32,134 nucleotides of DNA from Archangium sp. (GTDB taxonomy: Bacteria; Myxococcota; Myxococcia; Myxococcales; Myxococcaceae), in NCBI GenBank assembly GCA_016792935.1, contig JAEUJS010000208.1, positions 1 through 32,134 on the forward strand, read 5' to 3'. The translations under genes were made by a program, and so were the position numbers. Below the pieces are notes generated by a model that saw only the letters and a program-made list of their open reading frames with translations, was not told the origin of the DNA and made no database searches. This document shows, piece after piece, positions 4,919 through 8,840 of this stretch. Numbering within the stretch: position 1 is the first letter of the stretch; each line of letters opens with the position of its first letter.

Positions 4919-5941
4919 CTAGATCGGCGCGACCCTGATTCTCCACGTCGACGCGTTCTGCGCTTCCGGAGTCGCCTCGATCTTCACCGGCAAGAACCGC
5001 GGTACGAGCTCCACCTGCGTGCGCGTGTGCGGCGTCGGCTCGACCGTGCGGAACACGCCACCCTTCGCGACGGCGAGCGGAACGATGAGCTGATCAGCGA
5101 GGTGAAGTCCGACCGGCGCATCAGTTCGCAGTGAGCGCTTCACTTCACCCGCTGCTCGGCGCGCGACCTTCTCAGCCATGATCCCCGGAGCACCGAGGCC
5201 GACGAACACGTCCGTCACCTGCTCGTACTCGAGCGTCAGCGTCACCGCGTTGCCTGGACTCGGAGCCGTGATCTCCTCGGCGCGGATTTCGGCGTCGGTG
5301 AACGCAAGCTCTTCGCGCACCACACCCAGCTCACGGTTGGCGACCTTGAGGGGAATGGACGCCACCACCGCCTTCGCTTCGCGGCGCAGCAACTTCCCGC
5401 GCGTGACGAGCTCCAGCGATCCCAGCGGCGACGGAGTGACCTTCACCTCGATGCGCCCACCACCCGCAGGCTCGAAGCCCGGGCGGATCAACGCGACCTC
5501 GAGCTTCGCGCCCAGCCGCGTGAGGATCGGAAGGAGCGAGCGCTCGAGAAATTCGAAGGGCGGTGCGAGCCCGTTGTGCGTGCCACCCTCGACGGCGATC
5601 GTGATCGGCGCCGTCGCGCGAAGGAGCGCAGGGAGAACTGCCTGCAGCACGAGCGTCGTGCTCCCCGCGGTGCCGATCGAAAACTCGAAGTCGCCGCTCA
5701 CCAGCGCGCGCGGGCGAAAGCGCAGCTCCATGCTGCCGAGCTCTGCTCCTTCGACTTCGGCGTTGCCCAGCTTCGCGGCCGCCTGCACACCAGTGAGGTG
5801 CTGACGCAGCAGGCCGGGACGCTCGCGCCCACCGCGAATGCGCACGATGCGAAATTCCTTCCCCGTCACGAGGGAGAGGCCAAGCGCGGTGCGCAGCACC
5901 TGACCTCCTCCCTCGCCTTCTGAACCGTCGATGAGCAGCAT
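4919..5941 (-). CDS. rtcA: RNA 3'-terminal phosphate cyclase RtcA
   Basis: A 340-residue protein (E. coli RtcA has 338). It opens with the family signature IDGSEGEGGGQVLRTAL (4-20), then RPGLLRQHLTGVQAA (41-55) and EGGTHNGLAPPFEFLE (118-133). The nucleotidyl-accepting histidine is the His in EPTPHTRTQ (His305), matching the catalytic histidine of E. coli RtcA. RtcA uses ATP to adenylate itself and converts RNA 3'-phosphate ends to 2',3'-cyclic phosphates, the ends that RtcB can join. It starts 6 bases after the rtcB stop, with AAGGGG about 10 bases upstream inside rtcB, so the two are co-transcribed and probably coupled. A repeat region begins directly after its stop codon. Confidence 0.96.
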   Translation of the reverse strand: MLLIDGSEGEGGGQVLRTALGLSLVTGKEFRIVRIRGGRERPGLLRQHLTGVQAAAKLGNAEVEGAELGSMELRFRPRALVSGDFEFSIGTAGSTTLVLQAVLPALLRATAPITIAVEGGTHNGLAPPFEFLERSLLPILTRLGAKLEVALIRPGFEPAGGGRIEVKVTPSPLGSLELVTRGKLLRREAKAVVASIPLKVANRELGVVREELAFTDAEIRAEEITAPSPGNAVTLTLEYEQVTDVFVGLGAPGIMAEKVARRAAGEVKRSLRTDAPVGLHLADQLIVPLAVAKGGVFRTVEPTPHTRTQVELVPRFLPVKIEATPEAQNASTWRIRVAPI

Positions 5942-5947
5942 CGCTTT

Positions 5948-7150
5948 TCACCCCTTCACGCAGACCACCTGACGCAGCGTGTGCAGCACTTCGACCAGAT
6001 CTTCCTGCGCCGCCATCACCGCTTCGATCGGCTTGTACGCAGCGGGCGTTTCATCGAGCACGCCCTCGTCCTTGCGGCACTCGATGCCCTTCGTCGCGGC
6101 CTCGTGCTCCGCGATAGTGAACTGCGCGCGCGCCGCCGTACGCGACATGGTGCGGCCTGCGCCGTGCGAGCAGCTCTCGAAGCTCTGAGGGTTTCCCTTG
6201 CCGCGCACGATGTACGAACGCGCTCCCATCGAGCCCGGGATGATGCCCAGCTGCCCCTTGCCTGCGCGGACTGCTCCCTTGCGCGTGACCAGCACGTCGG
6301 CGCCGAAGTGCTTCTCGCGCGAGACGTAGTTGTGGTGACAGTCGACCACCATCAACGTCGCGTCGAACGGCTTGATGACGCGCGTGCTCTTCGCCGCCTC
6401 GACCACCGCAGCCATCATCAAGCGGCGGTTCTCGGCCGCGTATTCCTGAGCCAGGGTGACGGCCTCGACGTACTCGTCGAAGTGCGCCGTGCCTTCACGC
6501 AGGTACGACAAATCTTCGTCGGGCAGCGACGCGCCGTGCGCCTTCATGTCTTCGCGCGCGAGCTCGATGAAGATGGTGCCGAAGCGGTTGCCCAGGCCAC
6601 GTGAACCGGAGTGCAGCATGAACCACACGCGGTCCTGCTCATCGAGACAGACCTCGATGAAGTGGTTGCCGGTGCCGAGCGTGCCGAGCTGTGCCGAGGG
6701 ATCCTTCGAGCCCAGCGTCGGGCGCGACTCGACCAGCTTCCAGTAGCGTGGACCCAGGCGAGCCCATGACGCGTCGCGATCAGGAGCGGCCTTGCGGTGC
6801 ATTCCACGGCCGACCGGCACGCGCATCTCGATCGCCGTGCGCAGACCCTTGAGCGACGTCGGGAGATCAGACGCCGTCAGCGTGGTGCACACCGCGCTCA
6901 TGCCGCAGCCGATGTCGACGCCGACTGCCGCCGGGATCACCGCGCCGATCGTCGGGACCACGCTGCCGACCGTCGCGCCGATGCCCACGTGTACGTCCGG
7001 CATCGCCGCGACCCAGCCGTGGATGATCGGCAACGAGGCCGTGCGACGCAGCTGATCGAGCGCCTTGGGCTCCACCGACACACCGCGCGTCCACGCCTTC
7101 ACCGGCGCGCCACCTGCGTTCTCGATCACGTTGAAGGAGTTGGTTTCCAT
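5948..7150 (-). CDS. rtcB: tRNA-splicing/RNA-repair ligase RtcB
   Basis: A 400-residue protein, close to E. coli RtcB (408). RtcB joins 2',3'-cyclic or 3'-phosphate RNA ends to 5'-OH ends using GTP and Mn(II). Metal-site motifs are present: VGVDIGCGM (76-84), GTGNHFIE (159-166), LHSGSRG (179-185) and CHHNYV (271-276). The guanylated histidine is His329 in SCSHGAGR. The C-terminus ends in VVCVKG, as in E. coli. I chose the ATG at 7150 (protein starts METNSF) because a sigma-54 promoter lies just upstream; the longer open frame to 7192 would run through that promoter. Predicted transcription starts at about 7156, giving a leader of only about 6 bases. First gene of the rtcBA operon. Confidence 0.96.
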   Translation of the reverse strand: METNSFNVIENAGGAPVKAWTRGVSVEPKALDQLRRTASLPIIHGWVAAMPDVHVGIGATVGSVVPTIGAVIPAAVGVDIGCGMSAVCTTLTASDLPTSLKGLRTAIEMRVPVGRGMHRKAAPDRDASWARLGPRYWKLVESRPTLGSKDPSAQLGTLGTGNHFIEVCLDEQDRVWFMLHSGSRGLGNRFGTIFIELAREDMKAHGASLPDEDLSYLREGTAHFDEYVEAVTLAQEYAAENRRLMMAAVVEAAKSTRVIKPFDATLMVVDCHHNYVSREKHFGADVLVTRKGAVRAGKGQLGIIPGSMGARSYIVRGKGNPQSFESCSHGAGRTMSRTAARAQFTIAEHEAATKGIECRKDEGVLDETPAAYKPIEAVMAAQEDLVEVLHTLRQVVCVKG

Positions 7151-7166
7151 GATGCGTCGACGCAAG

Positions 7167-7182
7167 AGCAGCCGGCGTGCCA
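7167..7182 (-). promoter_or_regulatory. Sigma-54 (-24/-12) promoter of rtcBA
   Basis: Read on the minus strand the sequence is TGGCACGCCGGCTGCT. It matches the RpoN consensus TGGCACG-N4-TTGCW at all but one position (CTGCT at the -12 element). The invariant GG (7181-7180) and GC (7169-7168) are exactly 10 bases apart. Transcription should begin near 7156. The adjacent activator RtcR is a sigma-54-dependent AAA+ protein, which fits exactly. Confidence 0.88.
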
Positions 7183-7229: not shown

Positions 7230-7250
7230 ATCTCGTATCAAATACGAGAT
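7230..7250. promoter_or_regulatory. Perfect palindrome, candidate RtcR binding site (enhancer)
   Basis: ATCTCGTAT, a CAA spacer, then ATACGAGAT: a perfect 9-base inverted repeat in an otherwise GC-rich stretch. It lies about 75-95 bases upstream of the predicted rtcBA start, the usual distance for an enhancer-binding activator. It also ends 9 bases before the rtcR ATG, so it could mediate autoregulation or form a hairpin in the rtcR leader. That RtcR is the ligand is inference. Confidence 0.6.
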
Positions 7251-7259
7251 AGTCAGCGC

Positions 7260-8840
7260 ATGGCCCGGCCTCTCGTGGTTATCGGCATGCTCGGACCCAC
7301 GCTCGACAACGGCGAGGGAGCGGGGCGGTGGTCGCGTTGGCGGCCGAGTGTGGCGCTCTGTCAGGACCCGGCGCTGGTGGTGAGCCGCTTCGAATTGCTC
7401 TTCGACCCGAAGTTCACCTCTCTGGCCGAGGTGGTGGCGGCGGACATCGAGCAGGTGTCTCCGGAGACGAAGGTGAATCAGGTGCGCATGGCGCTGCGCG
7501 ACCCGTGGGACTTCGAAGAGGTCTACGGCGCGCTCCACGACTTCACGCGCGGCTACGAGTTCAAGCCCGAGCGCGAGGACTACCTCGTGCACATCACGAC
7601 CGGCACGCACGTGGCGCAGATCTGTCTCTTCCTGCTCGCCGAGTCGCGGCATCTCCCTGGGCGGCTCGTGCAGACGGGGCCGCCGAACAAGAAATCGCCG
7701 CGGCTGCCCGGCACGCGCGCGATCATCGATCTCGATCTGAGCAAGTACGACCGCCTCGCTTCGCGCTTCCGCGTCGAGGCGACCGAGGCGCGCTCGTTCT
7801 TGAAGCAGGGCATCGCGACGAAGAACGCGGCGTACAACGCGCTCATCGATCAGATGGAGCACGTTGCGTTGCGCACCCGCGCGCCGATGCTGCTCCTCGG
7901 GCCGACGGGAGCCGGAAAGTCAGAGCTCGCGCGCCGCATCTTTCAGCTCAAGCACGCACGCAATCTCGTGAAGGGCGAGCTGGTGAACGTGAACTGCGCC
8001 ACGCTGCGCGGTGAGCAGGCGATGGCCGCGCTCTTCGGCCACACGAAGGGTGCGTTCACCGGCGCCGCCAACGCGCGCGAGGGCCTCTTGATGCGCGCCA
8101 ATGAGGGCGTGCTGTTCCTCGACGAGATCGGTGAGCTCGGGCTCGACGAGCAGGCGATGTTGTTGCGCGCGCTCGAGGAGAAGGTCTTTCTCCCGGTCGG
8201 CGCCGATCGCGAGGCCTCGAGTGACTTCGTGTTGCTGGCGGGGACCAATCGCGATCTCACTGCGGCCGTGGCGAAGGGAGAGTTCCGCGCCGATCTCCTC
8301 GCGCGCATCAACTTGTGGACCTTCACGCTGCCGGGGCTCGCGGAGCGTCGCGAAGATCTCGCTCCCAACCTCGACTACGAGACCGAGCGCGCCGGCGCGG
8401 CGATCGGCCAGCAGGTGACCTGGAGTCGTGAGGCGCGCGAGCGGTACGTGAGCTTCGCGACCTCGAGCGAAGCGACCTGGCCGGGGAATTTCCGCGACCT
8501 CAACGCCTCGGTGACGCGCCTGGTGACGCTGGCGGAAGGTGGGAGGATCACCACGGCGCTCGTCGAAGCCGAGGTCGCACGGCTGCGCGCGGCGTGGAGC
8601 CCGATCGCTGATGACGATCCTCTCGCCGACGTGCTCGGCGCGCGCGCGGCGAAGCTCGATCTCTTCGATCGTGTGCAGCTCGCCGAGGTCGTGCGCGTGT
8701 GCGCTGGCTCGCGATCAGCTTCGGATGCGGGACGAAAGCTCTTCGCCCACTCGCGGCTCGAAAAGAGCACCAGCAACGACGCCGATCGCCTGCGCAAATA
8801 CCTCGCGCGCTTCGAGCTGACCTTCGACGAGCTGCGCTGA
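7260..8840 (+). CDS. rtcR: RtcR, CARF-domain sigma-54-dependent activator of rtcBA
   Basis: A 526-residue protein, similar to E. coli RtcR (532) along its length. Residues 1-180 form the RtcR regulatory domain, a CARF-type Rossmann fold known to sense RNA ends with 2',3'-cyclic phosphate; WDFEEVY (83-89) and DYLVHITTGTHVAQI (107-121) are conserved. The AAA+ domain has Walker A GPTGAGKS (214-221), the sigma-54 contact loop GAFTGA (264-269) and Walker B VLFLDEIGEL (284-293). The C-terminus contains the conserved NDADRLRKYLARF element. The ATG at 7260 matches the E. coli start (MARPLVVIGMLGPTLD); the frame is open much further upstream, but that part overlaps rtcB. No good ribosome site is visible: a GGAGGA lies some 37 bases upstream, beyond the palindrome. 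Confidence 0.96.
   Translation: MARPLVVIGMLGPTLDNGEGAGRWSRWRPSVALCQDPALVVSRFELLFDPKFTSLAEVVAADIEQVSPETKVNQVRMALRDPWDFEEVYGALHDFTRGYEFKPEREDYLVHITTGTHVAQICLFLLAESRHLPGRLVQTGPPNKKSPRLPGTRAIIDLDLSKYDRLASRFRVEATEARSFLKQGIATKNAAYNALIDQMEHVALRTRAPMLLLGPTGAGKSELARRIFQLKHARNLVKGELVNVNCATLRGEQAMAALFGHTKGAFTGAANAREGLLMRANEGVLFLDEIGELGLDEQAMLLRALEEKVFLPVGADREASSDFVLLAGTNRDLTAAVAKGEFRADLLARINLWTFTLPGLAERREDLAPNLDYETERAGAAIGQQVTWSREARERYVSFATSSEATWPGNFRDLNASVTRLVTLAEGGRITTALVEAEVARLRAAWSPIADDDPLADVLGARAAKLDLFDRVQLAEVVRVCAGSRSASDAGRKLFAHSRLEKSTSNDADRLRKYLARFELTFDELR

Follow-up and report, generated by a model that had tools for sequence, protein, structure and literature searches.

How does a ribosome find a message whose start codon appears to lie only a few nucleotides from its 5' end, and does it matter that the message encodes an RNA-repair protein? 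Both questions are raised by a locus of an Archangium sp., within a stretch of 32,134 nucleotides of DNA, the whole of which was analysed and is referred to here as the window. In it, rtcB and rtcA lie side by side, and the divergently transcribed rtcR encodes a protein with an RtcR (CARF-like) domain and a sigma-54 activator domain by Pfam; this is a standard RNA-repair locus (Table 1). A preliminary description of the window had placed the rtcB start codon about six bases after a sigma-54 transcription start, with no ribosome site, and had considered this layout notable for an RNA-repair gene.

Table 1. Coordinates of features in the rtcBA/rtcR region of the window
Feature	Position	Strand	Remarks
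rtcA	4919..5941	-	second operon gene; Pfam RTC E=4e-72; SD of -8.0 kcal/mol overlapping the rtcB stop
rtcB	5948..7150	-	400 aa; ATG 7150-7148; without SD; Pfam RtcB PF01139 E=6e-122
predicted transcription start	7153..7158, best 7156	-	12 nt past the -12 C (7168); purines G7158, A7157, G7155, A7153
sigma-54 (-24/-12) element TGGCACGCCGGCTGCT	7182-7167	-	GG 7181-7180, GC 7169-7168; near-consensus
near-perfect palindrome ATCTCGTATCAAATACGAGAT	7230..7250		21 bp, 9-bp arms; candidate RtcR enhancer, centre about -84 from the predicted start
rtcR	7260..8840	+	divergent sigma-54 activator; Pfam RtcR PF06956 E=2.5e-79, Sigma54_activat E=7.5e-46

The rtcB promoter and start codon

The element upstream of rtcB holds GG and GC 12 nt apart, and its complete 16-mer, TGGCACGCCGGCTGCT, recurs unchanged ahead of rtcB in many relatives from the family. 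Within the 32 kb of the window, a single position reaches the score of even a weak sigma-54 site, and perfect TGGCACGNNNNYTGCW sites number just 4 in the genome, compared with 17 for the reversed pattern, in what is a fragmented draft of 8.8 Mb (740 contigs, 81% complete). The genome also encodes RpoN (RpoN DNA-binding domain, E=5.7e-62). A chance match to the motif is ruled out by conservation, genome-wide rarity and the adjoining activator gene. The attribution of the promoter to RpoN is thus borne out by the conserved 16-mer, its rarity, the presence of rpoN and the divergent rtcR.

The position at which sigma-54 transcription starts varies within a few nucleotides. The distance from motif to transcription start has been reported as 8-13 nt in C. 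jejuni (PMC3847290). Carried over to the window, this spacing gives a predicted start range of about 7158-7153, and therefore an rtcB leader of between 3 and 8 nt. Because the -12 element lies 18 nt ahead of the rtcB ATG, we infer that the message starts about 6 nt before that codon. The coordinates agree with the offset first described, with TGGCACGCCGGCTGCT at 7182-7167 and the ATG at 7150 following the predicted start at 7156 by about 6 nt. The missing ribosome site is likewise confirmed, the SD pairing energy 5' of ATG 7150 being 0.

Further upstream, several relatives show TATC/GATA-armed palindromes between -76 and -96, where an enhancer-binding protein is expected. The window's own palindrome ends 9 nt ahead of the rtcR ATG and, besides its candidate role as an rtcBA enhancer, could let RtcR regulate its own gene. 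The rtcR start at 7260 has a weak SD (-3.0); SDs of the window's genes are modest in general.

The length of the leader depends on the choice of start codon. Since the rtcB frame is open upstream to -90 from the ATG and contains in-frame starts, translation might begin elsewhere, either from an upstream housekeeping promoter feeding ATG 7183 or GTG 7192, or at the downstream, in-frame GTG 7129. ATG 7183, however, overlaps the -24 element and lies upstream of the sigma-54 start, and its extension, MSAMARRLLLRRRI, is unconserved, with a GC3 of 0.67 in frame upstream versus 0.90 after ATG 7150. GTG 7192 was rejected on the family N-terminus, GC3 and promoter overlap. GTG 7129 has no SD, loses a conserved aromatic position and leaves an N-terminus shorter than that of any relative: the distance from start to PIKAW-type motif spans 10-29 residues in relatives, mostly 14-17, and would be 15 from ATG 7150 and 8 from GTG 7129. 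A sequence search for a second sigma-54 site upstream of the rtcB element found none. Initiation at any of these other codons is accordingly very unlikely. Of the two alternatives that the preliminary description had itself named, the upstream start site and GTG 7129, neither gains support from these checks, and the family N-terminus and the rise in GC3 favour the ATG that it preferred. Judged by these features, ATG 7150 alone among the starts suits the promoter as well as the protein family.

Elsewhere in the window's genome there is a second, distant RtcB (L002, G000:C591; ~30% identity), with no rtcR in the flanking stretch fetched. Among other members of the genus, none of the five genomes searched (G049-G053) has rtcR, unlike most larger genomes of the family, where it is present. 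Because these five genomes are without rtcR, the rtcBA/rtcR operon may have been acquired, or retained where other members of the genus lost it.

Leaders of rtcB among relatives

For comparison, rtcR-bearing loci were gathered from three sources: named genomes, the order and phylum to which the window belongs, and the order containing a Polyangiales MAG. Each of the ~110 relatives was analysed for sigma-54 element, start codon and leader. In the majority of relatives from the window's own family the element is that of the window, and it is followed by an rtcB leader of 32-56 nt with an SD. Predicted leaders of 2-6 nt were found at twelve other rtcB loci (L164, L167, L169, L170, L194, L197, L201, L206, L209, L212, L238 and L242), among which L209 is ambiguous owing to later ATGs. 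All twelve start with ATG, a codon favoured in start choice, and in L164, L197 and L201 an in-frame stop 6-15 nt upstream makes an earlier start impossible. Some of the short-leader elements are weak, scoring about 11, with a chance of 0-0.012 of an equal score in local sequence. L153 was left out, its element being too weak, and L165 (initially a leader of -3) was placed in the leadered set because its third ATG is preceded by a good SD; at L108 and L116 an upstream ATG gives an apparent 13-nt leader, and the conserved start lies further downstream.

The distribution of leader lengths is discontinuous: none of the ~110 relatives has an rtcB leader of 7-12 nt, and from 13 nt up most have an SD. 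Short-leader loci have no special first-codon composition (A+C 0.64 vs 0.62) and no weaker 5' folding (-7.6, compared with -7.4 for all leadered loci and -5.7 for those that remain once the main family block is set aside). On the RtcB tree, leader state requires at least 7 changes, with L209 omitted from the count; the window's RtcB forms a long branch of uncertain placement. Divergent RtcB paralogues, each with its own sigma-54-like element, were seen at L181 (G196:C26), L182 (G195) and L184 (G199). Those at L182 and L184 adjoin a distant RtcR-like gene, and at L181 the ATG lies about 5 nt past the predicted start.

One could regard the short leader of the window as an accident. The rtcR-rtcB gap measures 110 bp there versus 144-175 in same-family relatives, which fits a deletion of some 40 bp from the interval that separates the -12 element from the ATG, and such an event could have removed leader and SD together, leaving rtcB merely poorly translated, a product of drift with no positive role. 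Yet one clade of the RtcB tree (SH-aLRT 99) consists entirely of short-leader loci, keeping leaders of 2-5 nt over several genomes (L209 being ambiguous), and the gap at 7-12 nt, together with the +2 to +6 peak seen across the genus and described below, suggests selection or a permissive mechanism. Drift seems highly improbable on this evidence.

Sigma-54 sites across the genus

The same spacing can be sought ahead of genes that have nothing in common with rtcB. All 4 perfect TGGCACGNNNNYTGCW sites of the window's genome have a start codon close by, at +2, +3, +6 (rtcB) or, as GTG, +2. The relaxed motif TGGCAC-N6-TGCW occurs at 24 sites there, against 106 for the reversed control; depletion relative to the reversed control was also seen in G051 and G068, not in Pseudomonas. 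At the non-rtcB sites, gene starts were set from Pfam matches, GC3 and the look of the N-terminus. Among the 17 promoter-like sites of the window's genome, 9 are followed by an ATG in frame at +2 to +6, 1-2 more have a GTG, and 6 are SD-led, at +16 to +50. The second genome of the genus, G051, has the ATG at +2 to +6 at 11 of 24 promoter-like sites. Elements that precede unrelated genes and have a start codon 2-6 nt past the predicted start lie at L257, L259, L260, L282, L286, L287, L291, L298 and L299 in the window's genome and at L305, L313, L317, L325, L329, L333, L334, L336, L337, L346 and L349 in G051; they provide the chief support for a genus-wide class.

In contrast, the same layout is found at 3/36 sites in G068, from another genus of the family, 3/20 in the small genome G091, also of the family, and 1/19 in Pseudomonas nitroreducens. 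Taken together and in frame with a coding ORF, this makes 20 of 41 promoter-like sites in the genus set of two genomes (the window's, G000, and G051), versus 7 of 75 in the three contrast genomes (Fisher P=4e-6). When the TGGCAC-N6-TGCW sites of the genus set are counted unfiltered and regardless of frame, 25 of 52 have an ATG at +2 to +6 where about 3 would be expected. No ATG falls at 0-1 or at 7-11, the other 6-nt bins contain about 3 each, and by this count the contrast set shows a slight +2 to +6 excess only. The ORFs behind the short-offset sites of the genus are varied. Pfam matches include DUF559, matrixin-like, DUF1592/1588, HlyD, ricin-type lectin, CBS, pirin, FtsX/MacB (ABC) permease and SOUL proteins, and several N-termini resemble signal peptides by eye. 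Judged from motif and spacing, near-leaderless sigma-54 transcription is real, and the layout appears to be general within the genus, seen at about half of the sigma-54 promoters found, with no special RNA-repair trick about it.

These counts bear directly on the appeal to RNA repair. MazF is reported to remove the anti-SD of 16S rRNA, E. coli RtcB to re-ligate the truncated rRNA, and the ribosomes so altered to prefer leaderless mRNAs (reviewed in PMC12186496). A near-leaderless rtcB could then be an adaptation through which anti-SD-less ribosomes translate rtcB and are themselves repaired by RtcB, closing a feedback loop, and the independent emergence of short rtcB leaders in relatives is in keeping with such a scheme. 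The MazF model has, however, not been reproduced by other laboratories (reviewed in PMC9031893). Moreover, unrelated genes across the genus show the same spacing, rtcA has an SD within the same operon, and rtcB is leadered in E. coli as it is in most relatives from the family. The genome-wide control rules out an rtcB-specific device as the simplest reading, and we consider a repair adaptation quite unlikely. The view that the layout is notable because it belongs to an RNA-repair gene is not supported, since about half of the genus sigma-54 promoters show the 2-6 nt spacing before unrelated genes. A combined scheme, in which the genus would possess a dedicated, enhancer-dependent near-leaderless sigma-54 class with SD-free translation that also lets damaged, anti-SD-less ribosomes make RtcB, is doubtful.

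A proposed near-leaderless sigma-54 class and its known counterparts

We favour reading rtcBA as an RtcR-activated sigma-54 operon that has an SD-less leader of about 6 nt and belongs to a genus-wide near-leaderless class, and put the probability of this reading, drawn as it is from sequence, at roughly 0.77. RtcR would activate sigma-54 polymerase at rtcBA, and the rtcB transcript would begin about 6 nt (3-8) before the AUG, with no SD. We infer that ribosomes enter at this 5'-proximal AUG, most likely by 70S-type initiation as on leaderless mRNAs; translation of rtcA would rely on that gene's SD or on coupling. Across the genus, the class would be defined by a -12 element and a start codon kept 14-18 nt apart.

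A 6-nt rtcB leader is not strictly leaderless, and work in E. coli indicates leaderless translation to be best with the AUG at the extreme 5' end. Transcription of rtcB from the A of the AUG itself appears unlikely, because the start would then fall 18 nt past the -12 C, several nucleotides outside the usual range. At sites with an offset of 2-3, a strictly leaderless start is possible.

If about half of a genus's recognisable sigma-54 promoters lie 14-18 nt before a start codon, enhancer-dependent transcription would there be tied to SD-independent translation. The roughly 20 genes concerned would offer a natural set for testing how far an AUG may sit from the 5' end, and recognition of the class would improve the prediction of gene starts and promoters in myxobacteria. 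The layout of rtcB also renders the feedback idea, attractive but unproven, directly testable.

Leaderless genes and sigma-54 rtcBA operons are each already known. The rtcBA operons of E. coli and Salmonella have a divergent rtcR, as here; E. coli shares the rtcB-rtcA order, and its -24/-12 element, TGGCACGACGGTTGCA, is near-identical to TGGCACGCCGGCTGCT. The two differ in the leader, predicted at 28 nt for E. coli rtcB compared with about 6 nt and no SD in the window. Counterparts also exist among other Myxococcota. For example, the rtcB genes at L167, L194, L197, L201 and L242 have, like that of the window, a sigma-54 element, a divergent rtcR and no SD in the transcript, but their predicted leaders are 2-3 nt, their elements weaker (scores of 11-14 vs 17.4) and their RtcB proteins members of a different clade. 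At 4 of the 19 strong sites sampled in three such genomes an ATG lies at 1-3 nt; most of the other sites are SD-led.

To our knowledge, leaderless genes have been catalogued almost wholly from sigma-70-type -10 boxes. Predictions based on sigma-70 boxes place them in 8 of 33 delta-proteobacteria, among others (PMC3160421), all those of C. jejuni have sigma-70 promoters (PMC3847290), and a study of transcription starts in B. japonicum states that leaderless genes have no specific promoters described for them (PMC4842269). We found no description of a near-leaderless sigma-54/RpoN class in the open-access literature, including that on myxobacteria. The class proposed here shares with the sigma-70 leaderless mRNAs of Deinococcus-Thermus, actinobacteria and C. 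jejuni a fixed distance from element to start, the lack of an SD and an AUG near the 5' end. Whereas those messages use a -10 box and an offset of 0, the window's genus would employ the sigma-54 -24/-12 pair, an enhancer-binding ATPase and an offset of +2 to +6.
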